From Nitrospirota bacterium (GTDB lineage Bacteria > Nitrospirota > 9FT-COMBO-42-15 > HDB-SIOI813): 50,765 nt of DNA. The DNA lies in the NCBI GenBank assembly GCA_016212215.1, contig JACRGV010000077.1:1-50765 (forward strand), written 5' to 3'. The notes beneath the pieces were generated by a model, which searched no databases, was not told where the DNA came from, and saw only the letters and a list, made by a program, of their open reading frames with translations. Below, one piece after another: positions 2,380 through 43,332 of this stretch; the first letter of the stretch is position 1, and every line of letters starts with the position of its first letter. Position numbers and translations under genes: made by a program.

Positions 2380-3648
2380 TTAGATTCTCAACAGGCCGTC
2401 GGGAATTTTTTCCCTGCTGACCGGGCCGAGGACTACAAGGGAGAGGTATTCAGACTTAAATAATTCATCTGTAAGGTGTTGTACCTTTGCAGGGGTTATC
2501 TTCTCAATTTCACTGATTATCTCTGCCGGCGAACAGTATTTACCGAGGTACATCTCGTCTCTGGCAAGACGGCTCATCCTGTTGCTTGTACTTTCAAGAC
2601 CCAGCATTAGGTTACCCTTCATCTGGTTCTTAACCCTCTTCATCTCATCTCTGGAAATCCCGCTCTTTTCTATCTTACGTATCTCTTTCATAACAAGTTC
2701 CAGCACCTTTGGAAGGGCCTCGACGCTTGTACCTGCATAAATATTCAAAAGACCGGCATCTGTAAATGATGCAACATAAGAATAGATAGTATAAACCAGT
2801 CCCCTTTTTTCCCTTACCTCCTGAAACAAACGGGAACTCATACTGCTGCCAAGGATTGAATTCATCGCGTAAAGGGCATACCGGCTTTTGTGGCCCTGTG
2901 GTAATCCCATAGTACCAAGACAAAAGTGGACCTGCTCTGTTGTCTTTTTCTTTGTTAATATTCCGCTTTTAAGTGAAGGTGGAATACGTTTATTTAAGGA
3001 ACCCGGATTCCTGAATTTCCCGATGCTCTTATTAAGGAGCTTTATAAGTTTTGTAAATTCAAAATTGCCTGCTGCTGATATTACAATATTATCAGGATGA
3101 TAGTGCCGGCTTATATATTTAATTAATCCGTCTCTCTTCATACCCTGAATAGTTTCAACAGTCCCGAGGATAGACCGCGCAAGGGGATTCCCATCCCATA
3201 CCATCATGGAGTGCATATCGTGAATGAAGTCTTCAGGGTCATCCTCTACCATCTTAATCTCTTCAAGGATTACCTGTTTTTCTTTTTCCATCTCCTTCTT
3301 TAAAAATGCGGAGTGGAGAAAAATATCAGATATTATATCAATACCCTTTGACAGATGTTCATCAAGTATCTTGACATAAAAGGTAGTGCTCTCTCTTGTG
3401 GTGAAGGCATTTAGTTCACCCCCTATAGAATCAATCTCCATTGAGATATCATGGGCACTGCGATGAGATGTCCCTTTAAAGAACATGTGCTCGATAAAAT
3501 GGGACATCCCGCTCTCTATATCAGACTCATCCCTTGAACCGACACCTACCCATATACCGAGAGATACTGATTTTACCGAAGGTATCTGTTCAGCAACAAC
3601 TCGAATACCGTTATCGAGATGTATTTTTTTGTATTCTATGTCGTGCAC
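2380..3648 (-). CDS. M16 family zinc peptidase (processing-peptidase-like), 422 aa
   Basis: Length and sequence fit the single-chain bacterial M16 peptidase usually found next to pnp (YmxG/PqqL-like). The inverted zinc motif HFIEH (H50, E53, H54) lies in the N-terminal half, with the downstream glutamates around EKQVILEEIKMVEDD supplying the distal ligand. The second inactive M16 repeat follows, with the typical R/Y stretch (REKRGLVYTIYSYVASF). No signal peptide is visible, so it is probably cytoplasmic. It follows pnp, from which it is separated by a G/C palindrome and a TTCACTA heptamer run. Confidence 0.9.
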   Translation of the reverse strand: MHDIEYKKIHLDNGIRVVAEQIPSVKSVSLGIWVGVGSRDESDIESGMSHFIEHMFFKGTSHRSAHDISMEIDSIGGELNAFTTRESTTFYVKILDEHLSKGIDIISDIFLHSAFLKKEMEKEKQVILEEIKMVEDDPEDFIHDMHSMMVWDGNPLARSILGTVETIQGMKRDGLIKYISRHYHPDNIVISAAGNFEFTKLIKLLNKSIGKFRNPGSLNKRIPPSLKSGILTKKKTTEQVHFCLGTMGLPQGHKSRYALYAMNSILGSSMSSRLFQEVREKRGLVYTIYSYVASFTDAGLLNIYAGTSVEALPKVLELVMKEIRKIEKSGISRDEMKRVKNQMKGNLMLGLESTSNRMSRLARDEMYLGKYCSPAEIISEIEKITPAKVQHLTDELFKSEYLSLVVLGPVSREKIPDGLLRI

Positions 3649-3656
3649 CTGAAAAT

Positions 3657-3702
3657 AACCCCATCCCCACCCTAACCCTCCCCTTGAAGGGGAGGGAATA
3701 AG
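3657..3702. repeat. G/C-rich dispersed palindrome, copy 1
   Basis: CCCTCCCC-TTGA-GGGGAGGG hairpin preceded by ATAACCCCATCCCCACCCTA and followed by AATAA. The same unit, including flanks, recurs at about 19155, 37713 and 43187, and related units lie elsewhere. Sits between pnp and the M16 gene. Confidence 0.85.
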
Positions 3703-17635: not shown

Positions 17636-17650
17636 ACAAATTTACCATTG

Positions 17651-17740
17651 CTCACCCTCCCCCTAACCCCCTCCCGTCAAGGGAGGGGGAATATTCTATG
17701 CACCCTCTCCCCTGGCGGGAGAGGGTCCGGGTGAGGGGGG
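17651..17740. repeat. G/C-rich dispersed palindromes, copies 3a and 3b
   Basis: Two hairpins side by side: CCCTCCCG-TCAA-GGGAGGG type, then CCCTCTCCCCTGGCGGGAGAGGG followed by TCCGGGTGAGGGG. The same two-part arrangement recurs at about 20556-20662. Confidence 0.85.
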
Positions 17741-19111: not shown

Positions 19112-19154
19112 AACCCATTCCCCCTTTCCTGATTGTTGGCTTTTTTCTTACTAC

Positions 19155-19262
19155 TCGAAAATAACCCCATCCCCCCCCCTAACCCTCCCCCATTTAGCGT
19201 CGGGGAGGGAATAAACTTAGCACCCTCTCCCTCAGGGAGAGGGTCCGGGTGAGGGTGGGGGG
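19155..19262. repeat. G/C-rich dispersed palindromes, copies 4a and 4b
   Basis: ATAACCCCATCCCC flank, CCCTCCCC ... GGGGAGGGAATAA hairpin with a longer loop, then CACCCTCTCCCTCAGGGAGAGGG and GTCCGGGTGAGGGTGGGG. Nearly the same two-part unit as at 43187-43284. Confidence 0.85.
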
Positions 19263-19330: not shown

Positions 19331-19383
19331 GAATCTCCATAGCTCACCCTCCCCCTAACCCCCTCCCGTCAAGGGAGGGGGGA
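19331..19383. repeat. G/C-rich dispersed palindrome, copy 5
   Basis: AATCTCCATAGCTC flank (as at rimP) then CCCCCTCCCGTCAAGGGAGGGG. Confidence 0.85.
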
Positions 19384-19384
19384 T

Positions 19385-19412
19385 ATTCACTATTCACTGT
19401 TCACTATTCACT
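19385..19412. repeat. Heptamer repeat, TTCACTA family, entering mobA
   Basis: TTCACTA, TTCACTG, TTCACTA, TTCACTG. The mobA stop codon is at 19394, so the run encodes the last residues VNSEQ of MobA. Confidence 0.8.
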
Positions 19413-20555: not shown

Positions 20556-20662
20556 AAAAATCTCCATAGCCCACCCTCCCCCTACCCCCCTCCCGTCAAG
20601 GGAGGGGGAATAAAACTATGTACCCTCTCCCCTGGCGGGAGAGGGTCTGGGTGAGGGGGGAT
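20556..20662. repeat. G/C-rich dispersed palindromes, copies 6a and 6b
   Basis: AATCTCCATAGCCC flank, CCCCTCCCGTCAAGGGAGGGG, then CCCTCTCCCCTGGCGGGAGAGGG and GTCTGGGTGAGGGGGG, in the moaB-mobB spacer. Confidence 0.85.
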
Positions 20663-21185: not shown

Positions 21186-21234
21186 CCCCTCACCCTTACC
21201 CTCTCCCCTAAGGGGAGAGGGTAAGGGTGAGGGG
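21186..21234. repeat. Perfect 24-bp inverted repeat with one-base centre (G/C palindrome, copy 7)
   Basis: Arms 21186-21209 and 21211-21234 are exact reverse complements (CCCCTCACCC ... / ... GGGTGAGGGG) around an A at 21210. It sits in the mobB-tatB spacer and is the tidiest member of the G/C family. Confidence 0.9.
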
Positions 21235-21889: not shown

Positions 21890-23062
21890 ATGCTGAAGTA
21901 CCCGAAAATTGTAGTGTTTTCAATATTATTCTCTTTATTTTTTTTACTTAATCATTCTCAGGCAAAATCTCCGGAAAGTTCCTCCGTTTTTTTAAATAAC
22001 ATCAACTACTCTCAGGAAACAGATTTTACAAGAATAACTATTGAGATCAGCAATCCGGCAGTCTATCATGAAAAATACCTTTCCAATCCTGACAGGATTT
22101 ATTTAGACATCGAAAATACAAACCTTTCCGGAAATATAAGGCCAATACTGATTGACAATGGAGTCTTAAAACAGGTACGCACAGCCCAGCATGACAAAGA
22201 CACTGCAAGGGTAGTATTGGAATTAACACGTCATGCGGATTATAATGTTACTGCATTAACCTCTCCTGACAGGCTGGCCATAGATATTTATAATGGGAAG
22301 CCGGTTAAGAAGGCCGTAAAAAAGGAAACAACCAAAACACAAAAATCATCTCATAACTTTGTTAAACATATAATAGTGATTGACCCCGGACACGGGGGTA
22401 AGGATCCGGGTGCTAAGGGTAAAAGCGGCCTGCAGGAAAAGGATATTGTGCTTGATGTCGGCCGCCGCGTAAAGAAACTTATTGAAGAAAAACTCGGCTC
22501 TGATGTAGTAATGACACGAGATGACGATGTATTCATTCCGCTAGGTGAGAGAACGGCAATTGCCAATAAAAAGGATGCTGACCTGTTCGTTTCTATTCAC
22601 GTAAACTCAGCCCCAAGAGAAGGTGCAAGGGGTGTTGAAACCTACCTGCTCGGAAGGGCTACAGACAAGGATGCAATGGACCTGGCGGCACGCGAGAACA
22701 GCACTGCTGATAAATCATCATTAGATGACCTTCAGTTTATACTGACTGATTTAGTTACAACTGTAAAAAAGGATGAATCTTTCAGGCTTGCCCATTATAT
22801 TCAGGAAAATTTGATAGATACTTTGGAACCACGGTATAACACCATGAATCTCGGTGTAAAGCAGGCGCCTTTTTATGTACTGGTTCACACAAAGATGCCG
22901 AGCATACTTGCAGAGATATCATTTGTCAGCAATCCTGAGGAAGAACGCCTTATGTATGAAGGTAAATACCGTCAGGAGATTGCAGAATCCATATTTGACG
23001 GCATCAAGGAATATCTTGATGCCACGCCATTATTAGCCTTTCCAAAAGAAGCCCGGAAATAA
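21890..23062 (+). CDS. amiC: N-acetylmuramoyl-L-alanine amidase AmiC-like (AMIN + Amidase_3), 390 aa
   Basis: Periplasmic amidase that splits septal peptidoglycan. Signal peptide 1-25, AMIN domain about 35-135 (DFTRITIEISNPAVYHEKYL, RIYLDIENT), linker, and zinc amidase domain about 160-380. Zinc and catalytic residues are visible: H168 in IDPGHGGKDPG, E183 in LQEKD, H237 in SIHVNSAP and the late AEISFVSNPEEE. The 3' end of this gene is the left boundary of a large duplication (bases 22912 onward recur at 27732). Confidence 0.93.
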   Translation: MLKYPKIVVFSILFSLFFLLNHSQAKSPESSSVFLNNINYSQETDFTRITIEISNPAVYHEKYLSNPDRIYLDIENTNLSGNIRPILIDNGVLKQVRTAQHDKDTARVVLELTRHADYNVTALTSPDRLAIDIYNGKPVKKAVKKETTKTQKSSHNFVKHIIVIDPGHGGKDPGAKGKSGLQEKDIVLDVGRRVKKLIEEKLGSDVVMTRDDDVFIPLGERTAIANKKDADLFVSIHVNSAPREGARGVETYLLGRATDKDAMDLAARENSTADKSSLDDLQFILTDLVTTVKKDESFRLAHYIQENLIDTLEPRYNTMNLGVKQAPFYVLVHTKMPSILAEISFVSNPEEERLMYEGKYRQEIAESIFDGIKEYLDATPLLAFPKEARK

Positions 23063-23084
23063 AACTATTTGATAAAATGAGGCC

Positions 23085-23125
23085 GTCATTCCCACTTTCG
23101 CCCACTTTAGTAGGAATGACATTTG
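23085..23125. terminator. Hairpin terminator shared by convergent amiC and metalloprotease genes
   Basis: GTCATTCC ... GGAATGAC (23085-23120) followed by ATTTGTTTT. Duplicated at 27905-27945. Confidence 0.55.
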
Positions 23126-23132
23126 TTTTCTT

Positions 23133-23170
23133 GCCTCTTACTTCTAACATCTAACTTCTTATTTCTATTC
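23133..23170. repeat. Heptamer repeat, ACTTCTA family
   Basis: ACTTCTA, ACATCTA, ACTTCTT units and an ATTTCTATTCACTA end. Duplicated at about 27953-27990. Confidence 0.7.
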
Positions 23171-23171
23171 A

Positions 23172-24599
23172 CTACTTACTTGGTTTTATAAGCTGTTGTA
23201 CACACATATTTGCCTGTCTGGTTGCTTCTTCCTTCAAACCGAGTTGATCAGTTGTATCAGCCACTATCCTGAAATACCTGATTGCACTCCCGCAATCACC
23301 GGAATCCCTGTACCTCTGTGCGAGTTCCAATTGTATTGCAAGCCTCTCATCTCCTGTTGCAACATTTTCTACACTTTGCAGATGAGTCATGGCATTATTT
23401 TGATGCTGTAGGCTAACCTTTTTTGCATCTATAATGATTGCATCTTTCACATCCGGGCTTGCGGCTAAAGCAGCTGCGGCCTCAGCATTCTTTATTACCA
23501 TCCTTGCATTTGTATCTTCACTCTGTGCAGCTCTTACAGCAGAACTTACCTGAGGATTAGCAGAGTTGGCAAGGTCTACCGGTAATATAAAAAGCTGGAC
23601 ACCAGGGGCATGAACTTCTGAGGCCCCTGAACGGGTTATTAACTCCACATTAGTGTTAATAGTAGCACCCACATTAACATTAAAACTGCCTTGTTGAAGT
23701 ACAATAACGCCATTAGAAAGACCACCTGCGTTCAGTGCATTCTGAAGATTTTCATAAGGAAATACAAAAGAGCCGGTCTGTATCCACCATGCAAATGGGG
23801 CGTTACGGTTCACATAAATTGGCATCCTAGTGTAAAGCCTGGCCCTGTCAGTATCCCCCTGTGAACTCATCCTGTCCATCTGACATGGCGAGATGCGGCG
23901 CTGCGGTTCACTTGTATGGTACGACATAATATTGTTAAATGTCATGTTCACCTGATCCTGCTGTGTTGCATTTAAATTGGCATAAGTCGTACCAAAATTG
24001 TTCTGTGCTATCTGATCCTTAGTCCATCCCGTATTATCCGTGAGGGTATCCGTGCATTCGTCCTGGTTAGTGCAGCATGGCTCATGTGTATGCATGAGGT
24101 TAAAGCTGTGCCCCATCTCATGGAGGATGCATGACGGTGTATTGCCGCACCACTGGTTCATCAGGATCATATTATTATTTGGCGGAAAGTCACTGCAGGC
24201 GCTGCTGGTTCCGCCGTTTATATAGATATTTAATGCATCGGTCCGCCAGTGATAAGTCGCTGGGCTGGCAATTGCCGCATTCCTGAGATTGCCGAGCTGT
24301 CCGCATGCATCTGCGCTATACCATTGGCTCAATCCTGACAGGTCTACAAACTCAATAGTATCAATACCGTATTCAGTAATCACCTCCCGAAGAATTGAGT
24401 CCCCCTGGTTTATTTCATTCCAGATTTCCGCATCCGTATTCAGATTCCCGAATCCAGGACGGTTACCATTAACATCAAGTATAAACTTCACGGAAATCCT
24501 AAGCGGCACTGCTGCCATTGAAGTATAGGCAACGGCTATTAAGGAAAGGCAGACCATGACGGTCAAAACATATTTCTGTATTTTTCTTGTTGATAACAT
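23172..24599 (-). CDS. Secreted metzincin-type metalloprotease (M43-like), copy 1, 475 aa
   Basis: Signal peptide with cleavage near SMA-AV (residue about 30). The zinc motif HEMGHSFNLMH at 160-170 is HExxHxxxxxH, and the Met-turn NNIMSYH follows at about 223-228, which points to the metzincin clan, nearest to pappalysin/cytophagalysin (M43). Cysteines at C151, C157 and CC around 175 suggest disulphides. Residues about 285-330 (FPYENLQNALNAGG, GVIVLQQGSFNV) look like one turn of a beta-helix. The last 80 residues are TPR-like (AIQLELAQRYRDSGDCGSAI). It follows the fibre-like gene by 42 bases, with AAAGGAGG upstream of the ATG. Confidence 0.82.
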   Translation of the reverse strand: MLSTRKIQKYVLTVMVCLSLIAVAYTSMAAVPLRISVKFILDVNGNRPGFGNLNTDAEIWNEINQGDSILREVITEYGIDTIEFVDLSGLSQWYSADACGQLGNLRNAAIASPATYHWRTDALNIYINGGTSSACSDFPPNNNMILMNQWCGNTPSCILHEMGHSFNLMHTHEPCCTNQDECTDTLTDNTGWTKDQIAQNNFGTTYANLNATQQDQVNMTFNNIMSYHTSEPQRRISPCQMDRMSSQGDTDRARLYTRMPIYVNRNAPFAWWIQTGSFVFPYENLQNALNAGGLSNGVIVLQQGSFNVNVGATINTNVELITRSGASEVHAPGVQLFILPVDLANSANPQVSSAVRAAQSEDTNARMVIKNAEAAAALAASPDVKDAIIIDAKKVSLQHQNNAMTHLQSVENVATGDERLAIQLELAQRYRDSGDCGSAIRYFRIVADTTDQLGLKEEATRQANMCVQQLIKPSK

Positions 24600-24641
24600 T
24601 TGTTATTTACCTCCTTTCTCTCAAAAAGGGGAAAAGCCTGA

Positions 24642-26810
24642 TTATTGTAATGAAACCAATACCAGTACAAGTCCCTTCCCTTCAGTCAATGTTGACATTG
24701 CCTTTCCTATTATTGCACCCTGTGCCTTATTATAATCTGTGACCTTCATGGCATGTCCGGGGGTATCTGATGTTGTTAACAGGTCTCCCGGTTTTACAGC
24801 CCCGTAAGATGCGTCAACATAAGTATAGACACGGCCGGTTAAAGCCACAGGAGCAGAGTTTTTCTCCGTTATCCCCTGTTTTTCCATTACAACTCCGGGG
24901 TCAAGCCCGTTCGCACCGCTGATGACACCTGCAACAGTCTGGTCATATCTTTTATCCGCAACCCTGAGTTCTCCCGGATGTTCAACATCAATCGCCATGA
25001 CCATTCCCGGCCTGATTGCATCATTGTCCTTAATATTAAACGGCTCTGCAAGGTCTGCACCACCTGTGATATGAAGGGCACCTACGTAAAGATGCATATA
25101 TAAGCCTGAACCGGGATTGTATAATGCAACATTTGTTATTGCACTATTTAGACTCCCTATCTGCACATCGCTTCCCCATCCATCACCGCCTATATATGCC
25201 TGCTCATTGCCTCCTCCATCTACCCTCATAAAAGATCCGGCCACATGTAATTTCTGTGCAGGAGCAGATGTCCCTATACCGACGTTTCCACCGGTATTTA
25301 AGAAAATCCTATTAAATCCCTTAACTTCTAATGCATCATCCTGACCGGTCATCTCTCCAATTGCAACATAATCCCCATCACCGAAGCGTATCCTCTTTTC
25401 AACTGTAGTATCTACTGCATAAGCCCCAACCCTGATGCTGCCGCCGTTGCTAGCTGAGCTTTTTACGTTTAAATTTGAATCAGGATATGTATTTGCACCA
25501 ACGCTTAACATCCCTTTATGATATGCATTTCCTGCAGCATCAAAGGAGTGGGCCATGCTTGCATTATCAATACTTGAACAGTTTCCGCCGCCGCAGGAGT
25601 CTCCCCAGATAGAAAATTTGTCAACAGCATCATCAAGGATATAAAGCCTGAGATCTGAATCTGTACCTACAGTGTTTGTAGGCAGTAAAAATGCTGCATC
25701 ATTATACATAAATCCGGGAGCCAGAGTTGTTCCGCCTGTTGGGGTAAATCCACCCTGAAAGAATATCCGGCCATTAACATCCAATGTATCACGAGGTGTT
25801 ATCGTTCCGACACCGACCCTCGAATCGGAAACAGTTAGTACATCATTGATCCCGCCGCCGAGTATCAACCTATTGGTACCTCCATGTGAGCGAATTCTTA
25901 CATCACCGGCTCCGCCGCCGGCCGTTGCAATTCCTATTTTTAACCTGTAAAGGCTATCACCAATCTTTAAGTCTCCCTCTGTGTTGGTAAGATCCCAGAA
26001 GCCGCCTGCAATATGAAGAAAGGTATCCGGTGTAACACCAAGTCCGATACGGCTGATATTTAGTGCCGCCAATGATGAAATGTCCGTACCGGTTATTGAG
26101 CCATCAGCAATGGCTGCTGAATCAATGGCGCCGGGAAGGATGTGGTTACTTTGTATTGCACTATTGCTTATCTGACCTGGCCCTACTGCTGCCGGGGCAA
26201 TCTTTGTACTGTCTACTGCATTAGCAGCAATCTTTGCAGTAGTTACCGCATTGTCGGCAATCATTGCGGCAGTAACCTTAGTAAGGGCCGGGCTTGTTGA
26301 ATTTGTAGGGCCGTCAATTACAAGGCCACCTGAATCCTTTGTAGTTACGGAAACATACTGTGCAACTGTAACACCGTTATTTACTGTATCGCCTATCATA
26401 AGCCTTATCTTTGTATTTGCCGCCACATTAGGCGGGGTAAGTGCAGAAACAGTATATGTCAGTGTCTGCCCTGTTGCAGGAAGACCTGTTATTGATATAC
26501 CCCCTGCCCCTATATTAGCCGTTTCTATCAGTTTTGCGTTTCCTAAGTTAAAATTGGCAGGGAATTTTGCCTCTATCTTCTTTATTGCACCGGCAGTACC
26601 TGTATTAAATGCAATAGTATAGTATCCTTTTGCATATATAATATTGTTTGACGGCATTGCCTGTACAGATGTCAGCGGGGCCAACGGTACAATATCTACA
26701 ACAGCAGTATCCGGTGCCACCTCCTGTGCCATAACCCGATCAGCAGAAAATGTGAACGCTGAAAAAGCAATTAATGAAATTGACAATGTTTTAAGTAATT
26801 TGTGATTCAT
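24642..26810 (-). CDS. Fibre-like secreted surface protein, copy 1, 722 aa
   Basis: Signal peptide 1-28 (cleavage after VMAQ). Residues 35-165 form a beta-rich head shared with copy 2. A run of AAMIADNAVTTAKIAANAV-type repeats (about 180-240) looks like the coiled or beta-solenoid shaft of trimeric tail fibres. The central part has several VGIGT-x-P-x-x-LHVAG motifs seen in phage-tail- and adhesin-like proteins. The C-terminal about 150 residues (AEPFNIKDNDAIRPGMVMAI, GDLLTTSDTPGHAMKVTD, GKAMSTLTEGKGLVLVLVSL) are conserved and may be an assembly or attachment domain. I found no S74 chaperone motif. Role inferred as adhesin or appendage. Confidence 0.72.
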   Translation of the reverse strand: MNHKLLKTLSISLIAFSAFTFSADRVMAQEVAPDTAVVDIVPLAPLTSVQAMPSNNIIYAKGYYTIAFNTGTAGAIKKIEAKFPANFNLGNAKLIETANIGAGGISITGLPATGQTLTYTVSALTPPNVAANTKIRLMIGDTVNNGVTVAQYVSVTTKDSGGLVIDGPTNSTSPALTKVTAAMIADNAVTTAKIAANAVDSTKIAPAAVGPGQISNSAIQSNHILPGAIDSAAIADGSITGTDISSLAALNISRIGLGVTPDTFLHIAGGFWDLTNTEGDLKIGDSLYRLKIGIATAGGGAGDVRIRSHGGTNRLILGGGINDVLTVSDSRVGVGTITPRDTLDVNGRIFFQGGFTPTGGTTLAPGFMYNDAAFLLPTNTVGTDSDLRLYILDDAVDKFSIWGDSCGGGNCSSIDNASMAHSFDAAGNAYHKGMLSVGANTYPDSNLNVKSSASNGGSIRVGAYAVDTTVEKRIRFGDGDYVAIGEMTGQDDALEVKGFNRIFLNTGGNVGIGTSAPAQKLHVAGSFMRVDGGGNEQAYIGGDGWGSDVQIGSLNSAITNVALYNPGSGLYMHLYVGALHITGGADLAEPFNIKDNDAIRPGMVMAIDVEHPGELRVADKRYDQTVAGVISGANGLDPGVVMEKQGITEKNSAPVALTGRVYTYVDASYGAVKPGDLLTTSDTPGHAMKVTDYNKAQGAIIGKAMSTLTEGKGLVLVLVSLQ

Positions 26811-26845
26811 ATATTTTCCTCCTCCTCTCTTAAAACCATAAGTTG

Positions 26846-26890
26846 TTAAAGAATACCGGTTGATACAAGTTGTTTTTTTAATAGGGACAT
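26846..26890 (-). CDS. 14-aa leader ORF upstream of the fibre gene, copy 1
   Basis: ATG TCC ... TAA encodes MSLLKKQLVSTGIL and lies 35 bases before the fibre ATG. AAGGAGGTG directly abuts the ATG, closer than is usual. The duplicate at 31814-31858 encodes MSLLKRQLVSTGFL. Five of the seven base differences between the copies are third-position, which suggests the frame is or was translated. Confidence 0.5.
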   Translation of the reverse strand: MSLLKKQLVSTGIL

Positions 26891-27023
26891 CACCTCCTTG
26901 TAAAAATTATTTTTAAAACCGACCAATAAGACGCAAACATCAATGCGATGGTGTCTCGTTATTCTTAACCTAATAAAAAGATTGTCTCCTCACAGGCAGG
27001 CAAAGGGATTATTACGTTTCATA

Positions 27024-27052
27024 TTCATATCAAATTTCATTGTTTAAATCAA
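27024..27052 (-). promoter_or_regulatory. Candidate promoter of the fibre-protease unit, copy 1
   Basis: TTGATT (27052-27047), 17-base spacer, TATGAA (27029-27024), inside a block of about 90 bases that is essentially identical in both copies. Leader to the fibre ATG is about 205 bases. It holds the short ORF and a partly diverged stretch at about 26900-26975. Confidence 0.5.
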
Positions 27053-27142
27053 GAACTTTTTTGTCTGATTTTTTATAAAATGTAAGCCCAAAAATAAGCA
27101 TTTGCTTTTCCTGTCATATTATGTTATTTCATAATACCAAAT

Positions 27143-27712
27143 ATGGAGAACAATCAGAAACTAAAAGTATTTGAACCAAAACAAAAGACCGGCATTGTGG
27201 TTGTCATAACCGGAGACGGAAAAGGAAAGACTACGTCTGCATTTGGAATGGCCTTACGGGCGGCAGGCCATAACATGAAGGTCTGCATAATTCAGTTCAT
27301 AAAAGGGGACATGTACTCCGGCGAGATAGACGGGGTAAAGAGGCTTGCCCCTGATGTAGAACTTCATCTTACAGGAAAAGGGTTCGTCGGAATAATGGGC
27401 AATCCTCATTCCCATGAAGAACATAGGGCAAATGCACAGGAAGCAATATTACTTGCACACGACAAGATGTTATCAGGAAAATTTGATGTAACTATCCTTG
27501 ATGAGATAAATAATGCACTGAAGCTTGAACTGGTTGACCTTTCACAGATAACAGAGTTGATTGATGTTAAACCTTACTCTATGCATCTCATTCTCACAGG
27601 CAGGGATGCCCACCCTGAGGTAATAAAACGTGCACACACTGTCACTGAAATGAAAGATGTAAAACACGCATTAAGTCAGGGAATAGAGCCACAAAAAGGG
27701 ATTGATTTCTGA
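27143..27712 (+). CDS. cobO: Cob(I)yrinic acid a,c-diamide adenosyltransferase CobO/BtuR, 189 aa
   Basis: Transfers the adenosyl group of ATP to cobalt in corrinoids. P-loop GDGKGKTTSAFGMALRA starts at residue 24, followed by KVCIIQFIKGD, VTILDEINNAL and LILTGRDAHPEVIKRAHTVT, all typical of CobO. Length is normal. It stands alone between the two copies of the duplication, on the opposite strand to them; no other cobalamin gene is nearby. Confidence 0.95.
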   Translation: MENNQKLKVFEPKQKTGIVVVITGDGKGKTTSAFGMALRAAGHNMKVCIIQFIKGDMYSGEIDGVKRLAPDVELHLTGKGFVGIMGNPHSHEEHRANAQEAILLAHDKMLSGKFDVTILDEINNALKLELVDLSQITELIDVKPYSMHLILTGRDAHPEVIKRAHTVTEMKDVKHALSQGIEPQKGIDF

Positions 27713-27731
27713 TAATCATTTAAAAATAACA

Positions 27732-27882
27732 AGAGATATCATTTGTCGGCAATCCTGAGGAAGAACGCCTTATGTAGGAAGGTAAATACCGTCAGGAGAT
27801 TGCAGAATCCATATTTGACGGCATCGAGGAATATCTTGAGGCCATACCATTATTAGCCTCTCCAAAAGAAGCCCGGAAATAA
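27732..27882 (+). pseudogene. Duplicated amiC 3' fragment
   Basis: Copies the last 151 bases of amiC (22912-23062) with a handful of substitutions. One turns TAT into TAG (CTTATGTAGGAAGG), interrupting the frame. It carries no start and is a by-product of the duplication. Confidence 0.92.
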
Positions 27883-27991
27883 AACTATTTGATAAAATGA
27901 GGCTGTCATTCCCACTTTCGCCCACTTTAGTAGGAATGACATTTGTTTTCTTGCCTCTTACTTCTAACATCTAACTTCTTATTTCTATTCA

Positions 27992-29419
27992 CTACTTACT
28001 TGGTTTTATAAGCTGTTGTACACACATATTTGCCTGACGGGTTGCTTCTTCCTTCAAACCAGGTTGATCAGTTGTATCAGCCACTATCCTGAAATACCTG
28101 ATTGCACTCCCGCAATCACCGGAATCCCTGTGCCGCTGGGCGAGTTCCAATTGTATTGCAAGTTTTTCATCTCCAGTTGCAACATTTTCTGCATTTTGCA
28201 GATGCGTCATGGCATTAATGAGATGCTGTGCACTCACCTTTTGTGCGTCTATAATGATTGCACCTTTAGCTTCAGGAGTTGCAGCTAAAGAAGCTGCTGG
28301 CTCAGCATTCTTAATGACCATCCTAGCACTTGTATCCTCACTCTGGGCTGCACTTACCGCCGCACTTACCTGAGGATTACTGGAATTTGCTAAATCTACA
28401 GGTAAGGTATAAAGCTGGACGCCGGGGGCATAAACTGCTGAAGGCCCGGAACGGGTTATAATCTCAACATTGGTATTAATAGTCGCTCCCAGGTTAACGT
28501 TAAAACTACCCTGTTGTAATACAAACGCCATACTTGAATAACCGCCTGCGTTCAGTGCATTCTGGAAATTTTCATAGGGGAATACAAAGGATCCGTCCTG
28601 TATCAACCATGCCCAGGGGGCAAAACGATTTACATAAATCGGTATCCTTGTGTAAAGCCTCCACCTGTCAGCATACCCCTGTGAACTCACCCTGTCCATC
28701 TGACAAGGAGAGATGCGGCGCTGGGGTTCATCAGTATGGTATGACATTATATTGTTATACGTCATATTCACCTGGTCCTGCTGTCCCGCTGTCAGATTGG
28801 CAAACGTTGTACCAAAGTTATTCTGTGACATCTGATCTTTAGTCCATCCTGAATTATCAGATAGAGTATCACTGCATCCGTCGCTCCCGCCGCCTTCATG
28901 CGTGTGCATGAGATTGAGGCTGTGCCCCATCTCATGAAGGGTACATGAGGGTGTATTACCGCACCATTGATTCATAAGTATCATATTATTATTAGGAGGA
29001 AAATCACTGATAGCAGAACTTGTTCCACCGTTGATATAGATATTTAATGCATCAGTTCGCCAGTGGTAAGTTACAGGATCAGCTATTGCAGCATTCCTGA
29101 CCGCATCTCTTCCTGCTGTTGTAGCAGCACTTGTACTATACCATTGACTCAATCCCGACAGGTCTACAAACTCAACCGTATCAATGCTGTATTCAGTAAG
29201 AACCTCCCGCAGTATTGAAACCCCCTGATTTATTTCATTCCATATTTCCGTATCCGTATTCATGTTCCCGGCTGCAGGGCGGTTACCGTTTGCATCAAGT
29301 ATGAACTTGACGGAAATCCTGAGCGGTATTGCGGCCATTGCAGTATATGAAGTTGCAACAAAGAAAAGGCAAACCAGCACGGGCAATATTGATATTAGTA
29401 ATCTTCTCGTTGATAACAT
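27992..29419 (-). CDS. Secreted metzincin-type metalloprotease (M43-like), copy 2, 475 aa
   Basis: Paralogue of the 23172-24599 product with the same length. It keeps HEMGHSLNLMH (162-172), NIMSYH, the beta-helix-like segment and the TPR-like tail. The clearest differences are in the signal peptide, in residues 96-110, and after the zinc motif, where the copy 1 CC-x4-C cluster is replaced by a GGGSDGCSD stretch, so disulphide pairing differs. Active-site conservation implies both are functional. It lies 40 bases after its fibre gene. Confidence 0.82.
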   Translation of the reverse strand: MLSTRRLLISILPVLVCLFFVATSYTAMAAIPLRISVKFILDANGNRPAAGNMNTDTEIWNEINQGVSILREVLTEYSIDTVEFVDLSGLSQWYSTSAATTAGRDAVRNAAIADPVTYHWRTDALNIYINGGTSSAISDFPPNNNMILMNQWCGNTPSCTLHEMGHSLNLMHTHEGGGSDGCSDTLSDNSGWTKDQMSQNNFGTTFANLTAGQQDQVNMTYNNIMSYHTDEPQRRISPCQMDRVSSQGYADRWRLYTRIPIYVNRFAPWAWLIQDGSFVFPYENFQNALNAGGYSSMAFVLQQGSFNVNLGATINTNVEIITRSGPSAVYAPGVQLYTLPVDLANSSNPQVSAAVSAAQSEDTSARMVIKNAEPAASLAATPEAKGAIIIDAQKVSAQHLINAMTHLQNAENVATGDEKLAIQLELAQRHRDSGDCGSAIRYFRIVADTTDQPGLKEEATRQANMCVQQLIKPSK

Positions 29420-29459
29420 CTGTTTTTACCTCCTTTCTCTCAGCAAGGAAAAAGCCTGA

Positions 29460-31778
29460 TTATTGTAATGAAACCAATACCAGTACAAGTCCCTTCCCTT
29501 CAGTCAATGTTGACATTGCCTTTCCTATTATCGCACCCTGTGCCTTATTATAATCTGTGACCTTCATGGCATGTCCGGGGGTATCTGATGTTGTTAAAAG
29601 GTCTCCCGGTTTTACCACCCCGTAAGATGCATCAACATAAGTATAGACACGGCCGGTTAAAGCAACGGGTGCTGAGTTTTTGTCCGTCATCCCATCTTTT
29701 ACCATAACAACTCCGGGGTTAAGCCCGTTTGCACCGCTTATGACACCTGCAACAGTGTGGTCATAGCTTCTATCTGCAATCCTGAGTTCTCCAGGATGTT
29801 CTACATCAATGGCCATTACCATTCCAGGCATTATTGCATCATTGTCTTTAACATCGAAAGGTTCAGCAATGTCTGCCCCTCCGATTATCCTGATTGCACC
29901 AACCTCAATAACGGGTTCCAAAGTATCTCCACCGCCTGGAGAATCCCTGAAGTGGAATGTGTTATTGCTGTAATAAATCTGGTCTTCTGAAAATCCCGGA
30001 TGACCAAAGGATATTACATTCCCTCCCTGTACCTCAGGCCTGGCAGGATATGAATTCGGGAAGAATAACCCTCCCTGTGATGTATCTAAATATATTCCAG
30101 TCCTGGCCTTTATATCCATCGCATCATCTTTTCCTACCTGTTCTCCAATTGCTACATAATCCCCGTCACCGAAACGTATCCTTTTTTCAACTGACGTATC
30201 TACCGCATTTCCTCCCACTCTAATTGAACCATAATTATTAAACATATATTTTACATTAAGCGTAGAGTCAGGGGCTGTTTCACCAATACCGACATTACCA
30301 TTCCTTGTGATGGTGAGAAGGTCACCGTTTACCTCTGTCCAGAATCTTGCACTGCCGTCAGGATTGTACCAGACATATCTGTCGCCGGCAGCTACTAAAC
30401 TGGGCCATGATGTTAGGCTACGTTTTACAAAAGATAACTCAGCCATACTACCGCTTGCAACAACTCTGCCGGTTGCCGGAGATACCCCGAATAGCCCCAC
30501 ATTTAACGCACCAGAGACTACTCCTGAGAGAGTAAGACCATTTGCATAAAGATTCATATAATTTCCACTGGTTGCGTTATATAATGCAACATTAGTGACG
30601 CCTAAGTTCAGGCTGCCTAACTGAACATCACTGCCTGCACCATCTCCGCCCAGATATGCCTGCTCACCTCCAGCTCCGTCCACTCTCAGAAATGCCCCTG
30701 CTACGTGTAGTTTTTGTGATGGGGAAGTTGTGCCAATACCAACATTGCCGCTCACCGCTAACGACCCTAATGTACCTACCCCGGTTATATTTGGATAACT
30801 CCCGGCAGCTAAGTCAACATTACTTATCCCGGCATCAGCTATATCTGTAGAATCAACACATCCGGTACATACAACATCAGAAGCAGTACCGCCTGTATTA
30901 TCAATTCCATCTGCAAAGCCGGCAGGTACGCTTTTCAGCTTTGTCCAGTCCACCGGATTAGTTACCGTGTTAATAGTTCCCGCTGTATTTAACTCTGCCT
31001 CTGTAAAATATCTACCATCATGGTCAGCACTAAGCTTATGTGCATCTAATTCAGCCTGTGTGGCAGGATCAAATGCTAAATCAGCAATACTAACCTGTCC
31101 ATCAAGGATGTGGTTACTTTGTATTGCACCATTGCTTATCTGACCTGGCCCCACTGCTGCCGGAGCAATCTTTGTTCCATCTACTGCATTGGCAGCAATC
31201 TTTGCAGTAGTTACTGCATTGTCGGCTATCATTGCGGCAGTAACCTTAGTAAGGGCCGGATTTGTTGATGTATTAGGTCCATCAATTACAAGACCCCCTG
31301 AATCCTTCGTTGTTACGGAAACTGACTGTGCAACTGTAACACCGTTATTTATTATATCGCCTATCATAAGCCGTATCTTTGTTCCTGCCGGTACATTCGG
31401 CGGGGTAAGTGCAGAAATAGTATACGTCAGTGTTTGCCCGGTTGCCGGTAGACCTGATATTAATATGCCCCCTGCCCCTATATTAGCCGTTTCTATCAGT
31501 TTTGCGTTTCCTAAGTTAAAATTGGCAGGGAATGTTGCTTCTATCTTCTTTATTGCACCGGCCGTAGCTGTATTTAATGCAATAGTATAGTATCCTTTTG
31601 TATATATAATATTGTTTGACGGAACTGCCTGTACCGATGTAAGCGGGGCCAACGGAAGAATATCTACAACAGCGGCATCCGGAGCAGCCTCCTGTGCAAT
31701 GACACGATCAGCAGAAAATGTGAAAGCTGAAAAAGCAATTAATGAAATTGACAATGTTTTAATTAAAGTGTGCTTCAT
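29460..31778 (-). CDS. Fibre-like secreted surface protein, copy 2, 772 aa
   Basis: Paralogue of the 24642-26810 product. The first about 230 and last about 150 residues correspond closely, including the signal peptide and the GDLLTTSDTPGHAMKVTD end. The centre differs: it carries ATQAELDAHKLSADHDGRYF (a phage-tail-fibre-like phrase), then the RVDG-x-G-x-EQAY-x-GGDG cassette, an insert with ELSFVKRSLTSWPSLVAAGD, and then the SIRVGGNAVDTSVEKRIRFG cassette. In copy 1 these two cassettes are in the reverse order. The insert and order change account for the greater length. Confidence 0.72.
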   Translation of the reverse strand: MKHTLIKTLSISLIAFSAFTFSADRVIAQEAAPDAAVVDILPLAPLTSVQAVPSNNIIYTKGYYTIALNTATAGAIKKIEATFPANFNLGNAKLIETANIGAGGILISGLPATGQTLTYTISALTPPNVPAGTKIRLMIGDIINNGVTVAQSVSVTTKDSGGLVIDGPNTSTNPALTKVTAAMIADNAVTTAKIAANAVDGTKIAPAAVGPGQISNGAIQSNHILDGQVSIADLAFDPATQAELDAHKLSADHDGRYFTEAELNTAGTINTVTNPVDWTKLKSVPAGFADGIDNTGGTASDVVCTGCVDSTDIADAGISNVDLAAGSYPNITGVGTLGSLAVSGNVGIGTTSPSQKLHVAGAFLRVDGAGGEQAYLGGDGAGSDVQLGSLNLGVTNVALYNATSGNYMNLYANGLTLSGVVSGALNVGLFGVSPATGRVVASGSMAELSFVKRSLTSWPSLVAAGDRYVWYNPDGSARFWTEVNGDLLTITRNGNVGIGETAPDSTLNVKYMFNNYGSIRVGGNAVDTSVEKRIRFGDGDYVAIGEQVGKDDAMDIKARTGIYLDTSQGGLFFPNSYPARPEVQGGNVISFGHPGFSEDQIYYSNNTFHFRDSPGGGDTLEPVIEVGAIRIIGGADIAEPFDVKDNDAIMPGMVMAIDVEHPGELRIADRSYDHTVAGVISGANGLNPGVVMVKDGMTDKNSAPVALTGRVYTYVDASYGVVKPGDLLTTSDTPGHAMKVTDYNKAQGAIIGKAMSTLTEGKGLVLVLVSLQ

Positions 31779-31813
31779 ATATTTATCTCCTCCTCTCTCA
31801 GAACCATAAGTTG

Positions 31814-31858
31814 TTAAAGAAACCCTGTTGAAACAAGTTGCCTTTTTAATAGAGACAT
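31814..31858 (-). CDS. 14-aa leader ORF upstream of the fibre gene, copy 2
   Basis: Encodes MSLLKRQLVSTGFL, with GAGGAGGTG abutting the ATG; the fibre ATG (31778) follows 35 bases after the stop. See the copy at 26846-26890. Confidence 0.5.
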   Translation of the reverse strand: MSLLKRQLVSTGFL

Positions 31859-31992
31859 CACCTCCTCAAAAAGAATTATTTTGAAAACTGAACAATCAGA
31901 CACAAACAGGACATGTAATCGTCTCGTTGCACTAAACCTAATAAAAAGGATTGTCTCCTCACAGGCAGGCAAAGGGGTTATTACGTTTCATA

Positions 31993-32021
31993 TTCATATC
32001 AAATTTCATTGTTTAAATCAA
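31993..32021 (-). promoter_or_regulatory. Candidate promoter of the fibre-protease unit, copy 2
   Basis: TTGATT (32021-32016), 17-base spacer, TATGAA (31998-31993), as in copy 1. Confidence 0.5.
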
Positions 32022-32115
32022 GAACTTTTTTGTCTGATTTTTTATAAATTTCCAGCCCAAAATCAGCATTTGCTTTTTCTGTCATATTGCAATTCCAACT
32101 TAATTCACCAATGTC

Positions 32116-32493
32116 TTATATCAGTTGCCTTGCCGCTAACACACCGAACCAGGTAAATAAGATGCATGCAACAAAATTGGCAGTGCCGTTTATTATGGCA
32201 AGGAAAATCTTTCCGTCCTGAAGTAGTCTGAATGTTTCATAGCTAAGGGCTGATAGGGTTGACAGACCTCCGAGGAATCCTACAGTTATACCCACACGCA
32301 GGTCAAAGGATATAACCTCTGTAAGAATTCCGTATTCCATGACAAGACCTATTATAAAAGCACTTACTATGTTTACTGCAAATGTACCATAAGGAAAATT
32401 CCTCCCAAGTATATGATATACCCATCCGGACAGGTAATAACGTGATACACAGCCAAGTGCACCGAAGATTATAATGTATAAAACTACTCGCAT
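32116..32493 (-). CDS. crcB: Fluoride efflux channel CrcB/Fluc, 125 aa
   Basis: Four hydrophobic segments and the family motifs GALGCVSRYYLSGWV and YGTFAVNIVSAFIIG, plus VGITVGFLGGLSTLSALSYE with the (S/T)FS-like region. Forms a dual-topology dimer that exports fluoride. Single gene; no fluoride riboswitch fits in the short leader. Confidence 0.93.
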   Translation of the reverse strand: MRVVLYIIIFGALGCVSRYYLSGWVYHILGRNFPYGTFAVNIVSAFIIGLVMEYGILTEVISFDLRVGITVGFLGGLSTLSALSYETFRLLQDGKIFLAIINGTANFVACILFTWFGVLAARQLI

Positions 32494-32505
32494 TTTAATG
32501 CAACA

Positions 32506-32534
32506 ATAATAACCAAAACCTTCATAAAAAACAA
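32506..32534 (-). promoter_or_regulatory. Candidate crcB promoter
   Basis: TTGTTT (32534-32529), 17-base spacer, TATTAT (32511-32506). The predicted start is only a few bases before the ATG at 32493, so the leader would be near zero. Confidence 0.45.
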
Positions 32535-32540
32535 TAAAAA

Positions 32541-32572
32541 AAGCCCTCCGGAAATTTCCTATCCGGAGGGCT
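32541..32572 (-). terminator. Intrinsic terminator after groEL
   Basis: AAGCCCTCCGGA / TCCGGAGGGCTT stem with an 8-base loop, followed on the minus strand by a T-rich run, 31 bases past the groEL stop. Confidence 0.9.
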
Positions 32573-32602
32573 TCTATACTTAAAGAAGTTATTTTGTTTT
32601 AA

Positions 32603-37675: not shown

Positions 37676-37712
37676 TTTACTTACCTCCCTGATTCATCTG
37701 CATCTATTTCAA

Positions 37713-37765
37713 CCGAAAATAACCCCATCCCCACCCTGCCCCTCCCCTTGAAGGGGAGGGAAATA
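37713..37765. repeat. G/C-rich dispersed palindrome, copy 8
   Basis: CGAAAATAACCCCATCCCC flank then CCCTCCCC-TTGA-GGGGAGGG with AAATAA, in the rpmJ-rpsM spacer of the ribosomal operon. Confidence 0.85.
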
Positions 37766-37773
37766 ATGGGGGG

Positions 37774-43156: not shown

Positions 43157-43186
43157 ATATTATTTATCCTCTTCTTCCCATGCACT

Positions 43187-43284
43187 CGAATATAACCCCA
43201 TCCCCGCCCTAACCCTCCCCTTGAAGGGGAGGGAATAAACTTAGCACCCTCTCCCTCAGGGAGAGGGTCCGGGTGAGGGTGGGG
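43187..43284. repeat. G/C-rich dispersed palindromes, copies 9a and 9b
   Basis: ACTCGAATATAACCCCATCC flank, CCCTCCCC-TTGA-GGGGAGGGAATAA, then CACCCTCTCCCTCAGGGAGAGGG and GTCCGGGTGAGGGTGGGG. Fills most of the unusually wide (176-base) rpsH-rplF spacer. Confidence 0.88.
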
Positions 43285-43332
43285 TTTTCATTTTCCTTTG
43301 TGAACCCTCGGTTCATGTGGGTTCTTCCGAAA

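Follow-up and report, generated by a model that had tools for sequence, protein, structure and literature searches.

Metzincins usually have Gly at the position that Asn occupies in the zinc motif HExxHxxNxxH. Mirolysin has Asp in place of this Gly (PMC6949598) and, like ulilysin and cytophagalysin, is a pappalysin of family M43, a secreted enzyme with an HExxH...H zinc motif, a Met-turn and a Tyr placed two residues beyond the Met-turn Met, the last being a pappalysin feature (PMC11674741). Phage-type tail fibres (PHROG 892 and 28766) have shafts of AKIAxxAV and GNVGIGT repeats, and in DBLMSP and DBLMSP2 of Plasmodium falciparum some segments are common to both genes through non-allelic conversion and others are deeply diverged (PMC10919680). 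The locus described here resembles the first two in its proteins and may be likened to the third in its pattern of divergence. It lies in a stretch of 50,765 nucleotides from a Nitrospirota bacterium (contig JACRGV010000077.1; hereafter the window), where a fibre gene and a pappalysin-like protease gene are present in two copies, and the comparison rests on one draft genome of 164 contigs. Literature searches touching fibre-pappalysin pairing found no description of it; what is new is the pair, conserved and apparently undescribed, together with the mosaic, stepwise form of its duplication, for which processes of known kinds are invoked.

The copies (A, 22912-27120; B, 27732-32088) match from the interior of amiC to CTGTCATATT, with cobO in between, as the preliminary description had proposed with a right end one base shorter (32087). 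Self-BLAST of the window returned 22912-25058 against 27732-29876 (85%, E = 0) and 26136-27120 against 31104-32088 (89%, E = 0), with no further pair of similar length; the shaft between these blocks is ~45-60% identical in a forced alignment. A second copy of one contiguous stretch is what defines a tandem duplication, and this matching supports the earlier view that the whole unit was duplicated. Binned along the alignment of A with B, identity reached 94-100% at the left end; it stood at 84-96% for the fibre N-terminus, 79-94% for the leader and 72-85% for the protease core, and fell to 43-70% for the shaft. All four reading frames are open, so that the claim of differing interiors with both gene sets intact holds, as does that of a decayed amiC passenger fragment (Table 1). 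The non-coding ends had been called nearly identical, which is right for the left (8 differences in 260 bases, 22912-23171) and wrong for the right, where 35/169 and 7/43 leader columns differ on either side of a 99-bp block. A search of the genome with the leader found no third copy.

Table 1 Features of the duplicated fibre-protease locus and its flanks (positions in the window)
Feature	Position	Strand	Remarks
amiC (AMIN + Amidase_3), intact	21890..23062	+	Pfam Amidase_3 6.7e-54; last 151 bases open the repeat's left end
Left near-identical tract, copy A (amiC tail, intergenic, protease 3' end)	22912..23340	.	3/147 near-neutral sites differ
Protease A, 475 aa, pappalysin-like metallopeptidase, helical C-terminus	23172..24599	-	Pfam M43 5.2e-5, above cut-off; HExxHxxNxxH, NIMSYH
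Fibre A, 722 aa: signal-like N-terminus, repeat shaft, conserved C-terminal domain	24642..26810	-	
Fibre A conserved C-terminal domain (aa 583-722)	24645..25064	-	
Shaft module M, fibre A (aa 510-544), immediately upstream of C-terminal domain, the order of most relatives	25179..25283	-	
Shaft module X, fibre A (aa 446-486), upstream of M	25353..25475	-	
Leader and predicted promoter region, fibre A	26811..27120	-	
Conserved upstream block A	26979..27077	-	1/99 sites differ vs ~20% around; by eye TTGATT-17-TATGAA
cobO, single copy between repeats	27143..27712	+	Pfam CobA_CobO_BtuR 2.8e-58
Dead amiC tail fragment, start of copy B	27732..27882	+	in-frame TAG
Left near-identical tract, copy B	27732..28160	.	
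Protease B, 475 aa, pappalysin-like	27992..29419	-	Pfam M43 1.5e-7
Fibre B, 772 aa	29460..31778	-	
Fibre B conserved C-terminal domain (aa 633-772)	29463..29882	-	
Shaft module X, fibre B (aa 506-546), between M and C-terminal domain	30141..30263	-	
Shaft module M, fibre B (aa 346-380), displaced from C-terminal domain	30639..30743	-	
Leader and predicted promoter region, fibre B	31779..32088	-	87% to A
Conserved upstream block B	31947..32046	-	
crcB-like gene (name by sequence reading), flanks copy B	32116..32493	-	beside groEL in two relatives

The proteases match Pfam PF05572 (M43) at 23.7 and 31.9 bits (cut-off 23), in the catalytic half only. Set against the family's extended zinc motif HExxHxxGxxH/D, the nine aligned members keep its three His and its Glu without exception, Asn169 stands in the Gly position (9/9), and the Met-turn N[IV]MSYH has its Tyr two residues past Met. 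These proteases differ from known pappalysins in that Asn, in a helical C-terminal region, in the fibre gene adjoining in the loci examined, and in having no conserved N-terminal Cys for the Cys-Gly switch of a pro-segment: no N-terminal Cys is common to all members (L012 and L090 have none before Cys149). The AlphaFold model (mean pLDDT 53, catalytic half mostly <50) was too poor for a fold search, the best match in a PDB sequence search was pappalysin-1 at an E-value of only 0.39, and no relatives were found in viral contigs. For the fibres, whose shafts have the AKIAxxAV and GNVGIGT repeats, the N-terminal and shaft part matches tail-fibre PHROGs (892 and 28766), with PHROG 892 at E 1e-10 and 3e-10 in the N-terminal half; the C-terminal domain had no match in 50,697 phage records (tblastn, E 1e-3) or in Pfam, its structure model (pLDDT 36) was too low for a fold search, and a PDB sequence search with the fibre found nothing. 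Unlike phage tail fibres, those described here are chromosomal, with no phage genes seen beside them and no phage structural region, the neighbours being housekeeping genes, and their N-terminus resembles an export signal; read by sequence alone, protease and fibre both open with signal-like segments. Both leaders (26838-26900 and 31806-31868, minus strand) have a GGAGGTGAT run, full Shine-Dalgarno-like, abutted by the start of a possible 14-codon upstream ORF (MSLLKKQLVSTGIL and MSLLKRQLVSTGFL) with mostly conservative changes between copies. A promoter scan of the leader found none, the TTGATT-17-TATGAA element being a reading by eye, and an Rfam scan of the region gave nothing but a sub-threshold L10_leader at 32528-32600, beside groEL.

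Searches of the 40 closest genomes, among them the only congener (78% complete), returned no such protease; of 396 genomes in the phylum, G347 and G317 were the only others with strong matches. A fibre end precedes the protease in both of these other Nitrospirota (loci L050 and L012, respectively), in L084-L087 (Pelobacter, Deltaproteobacteria, Geobacteraceae and Geobacter) and in L090 (Planctomycetota). The planctomycete is the exception to the one protease per genome of these relatives: it has two, on separate contigs, and a fibre end precedes the second as well. Judged by this gene order, the pairing of a fibre with a pappalysin-like protease behind it is conserved across Nitrospirota, Geobacteraceae-type and Planctomycetota genomes. 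In L084 (11425-12549), L086 (11386-12510), L085 (3641-4765) and L012 (2642-3184) the pair is followed by a third gene, exported-looking, which is missing in the window. In a relative from the same family, a fibre N-terminus 43-45% identical to those of A and B, cut by a contig end, lies at 3-557 of L051 (contig C101 of G006), away from amiC and cobO.

Divergence between A and B was counted at near-neutral sites, that is, 4-fold sites with an unchanged amino acid together with non-coding sites, in segments whose boundaries were picked post hoc with the data already seen. From left to right, differences amounted to 2% in 22912-23340, the left end with its dead amiC tail, 50% in the protease core (70/141, 23341-24599), 10% in the fibre-protease spacer (4/40), 7% in 24642-24800 (2/29), 38% in 24801-25085 (18/47), ~70% in the fibre shaft (44/63, where the alignment is loose and uncertain), ~20% in the fibre N-terminus (23/116), ~20% in the leader (33/167) with 14% in its outer part (6/42), and 1% in the 99-bp block. 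The near-identical left tract extends into the protease 3' end, to ~23340, and includes an exact stretch of >100 bp common to both copies; within the left half, up to 102 consecutive near-neutral sites are identical, a run that 0/50,000 permutations reached, and the left non-coding DNA and amiC tail differ in divergence from the right leader (Fisher p 2e-9). Uniform neutral divergence, expected from a single event without later exchange, was not seen. Because near-neutral divergence is mosaic, a single duplication with point mutation is an inadequate account, and since interior synonymous sites are strongly diverged next to neutral DNA at 2%, the segments appear to be of different ages or origins. 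Constraint is an unlikely reason for the identity of the left tract, since it contains intergenic DNA and the tail of a dead gene. For the 99-bp block, flanked to left and right by DNA with 14-21% differences (Fisher p 6e-6), identity may be better read as constraint than as conversion. The pattern as a whole argues that recombination, not plain copying followed by slow change, shaped both copies. The pyrimidine-rich part of the identical intergenic DNA (23121-23170 and 27941-27990) resembles sequence on contig C134 (83%) and may itself belong to a dispersed repeat. A dispersed repeat ~50-110 bp long and 78-96% identical occurs in at least seven places in the window (3644-3701, 17638-17740, 19153-19260, 19332-19388, 20558-20660, 37712-37766 and 43181-43303) and also on contigs C5 and C134.

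Evolutionarily, the protease is under purifying selection: rather than the ratio near 1 in both genes that the preliminary description had named as counter-evidence, dN/dS between the protease copies is 0.16, with no 40-codon window above 0.31. In the fibre, 40-codon windows gave 0.12-0.40 in the N-terminal and 0-0.21 in the C-terminal part, the shaft being too diverged for a meaningful ratio. The proposal that selection had kept and diversified both copies therefore stands as to constraint and fails as to selection acting alone after one duplication, since 4-fold sites differ by ~50% in the protease core against 2% in adjoining neutral DNA. Synonymous divergence between the proteases (pS mostly 0.25-0.73 per window, gene average 0.48, last window 0.09) can be set beside that between the window and congener G001 (pS 0.61-0.71 in five genes); by this measure the interior is old, probably somewhat younger than the congener split, and the left end is young. 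Proteases A and B are 80% identical to each other and at most 62% identical to any relative.

The shafts are also rearranged. Ahead of the C-terminal domain (C), fibre A has the module order X-M-C and fibre B the order M-X-C. In L084-L089, a segment matching fibre B residues ~331-343 to 411-419 runs straight into the match to residues 624/629-772, so that M is contiguous with C in most relatives, the distant L090 being without a clear M. Because the order in L084-L089 equals that of fibre A, fibre B is taken as the rearranged form. Between the orthologous loci L084 and L086, identity is mostly 85-97% around the gene and 48-78%, with gaps, in the shaft alone, which points to the shaft as a hypervariable island in which exchange also separates orthologues.

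The surroundings also appear rearranged. Relatives have amiC followed by truA (G003, G004, G005 and G006), nth followed by cobO (G003, G004, G005, G007 and G008, also read in L048) or cobO abutting lexA (congener G001), and crcB stands beside groEL in G003 and G006. In the genome studied, truA abuts lexA on contig C5 (L105, 3123-4655), amiC is separated from cobO by unit A, and strong resemblance to the relatives' nth is confined to a 36-aa stretch. From these orders, cobO and truA would have changed places relative to the relatives, cobO would have arrived by rearrangement and not be an ancestral neighbour of amiC, and the window would join three neighbourhoods that are separate elsewhere. 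That cobO itself has no duplicate is borne out, the only other match in the genome being a 37%-identical paralogue on contig C35. The two options offered earlier, loss of a second cobO or a right break before it, are incomplete, as cobO may have moved in: a second cobO may have been lost, copy B may have been inserted beyond cobO, or cobO may have been inserted between the copies. Upstream of amiC lies a 49-bp near-perfect palindrome (98%, 21186-21234).

We favour, with a probability of roughly 55%, an old duplication of the fibre-protease operon whose left end was later homogenised by gene conversion and whose shaft evolved by module shuffling. The unit beside amiC would have been duplicated long ago, the interior synonymous divergence nearing the distance between species and congener, and both copies would have stayed under purifying selection. 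Conversion between the neighbours would then have homogenised the left end, and the fibre-protease junction less recently or less completely, while the protease core and shaft would have escaped conversion or been selected to stay different, the shaft also changing by module shuffling. Each unit would be read on the minus strand from its upstream predicted promoter region; the common ends would keep expression, export and assembly shared, the shafts would provide two variants of binding or reach, and the protease may act at the cell surface, either on the fibre or alongside it. DBLMSP and DBLMSP2 offer an analogy, from which the present case differs in that it concerns one bacterial genome and that homogenisation extends to non-coding ends and to the tail of a dead gene.

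An unlikely alternative, though the best of the rest, is a recent duplication after which a related strain or species donated a diverged homologue that replaced most of one copy, the left end alone showing the true young age. It would explain why the left end, dead amiC tail included, is only ~3% diverged next to an interior that resembles a between-species distance, and exchange evidently occurs in the family, as the Geobacteraceae-type orthologues differ in the shaft without any duplication. What favours old duplication with left-end conversion is the age of the right leader, which is 14-20% diverged as far as the breakpoint; moreover, an interior stepped between 7-10% (gene junction), 20% (N-terminus) and 50-70% (the remainder) would call for several imports, neither copy is consistently nearer the outgroups, and no donor appears among the nine family members compared, all without the protease and several with incomplete genomes. 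We consider it improbable that two dispersed units, or the units of two strains, were joined in assembly through the near-identical tracts, making the tandem layout, or the matching of ends to interiors, wrong: the many contigs, the exact stretch common to both left ends and the union of neighbourhoods separate in relatives would fit such an artefact, but two unique junctions are present, that of cobO with the amiC fragment and that of the leader with crcB, the left tract is short, and the changed neighbour of truA on another contig fits a real genome rearrangement. Least probable of all is the single tandem duplication first proposed, with point mutation and selection diversifying interiors and conserving ends, which accommodates the intact gene sets, the decayed amiC fragment and the extremely diverged shaft and is contradicted by a ~25-fold difference between adjoining segments at synonymous and non-coding sites, not amino acids only, by purifying, not diversifying, selection on the protease core, by shaft modules that are rearranged and not merely substituted, and by an identical left end with no evident reason for conservation.

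It is conceivable, though we think it doubtful, that the conserved ends serve as homology anchors through which neighbouring units, and units of other strains, keep trading shafts and protease cores; if so, this would be a free-living bacterium with a renewable repertoire of surface fibres and matched proteases behind a common promoter, export signal and assembly domain. Two linked, intact and unequal copies, together with the variation among orthologous shafts, offer a direct way of testing which fibre parts may vary, and the same copies allow a test of protease-fibre co-evolution.
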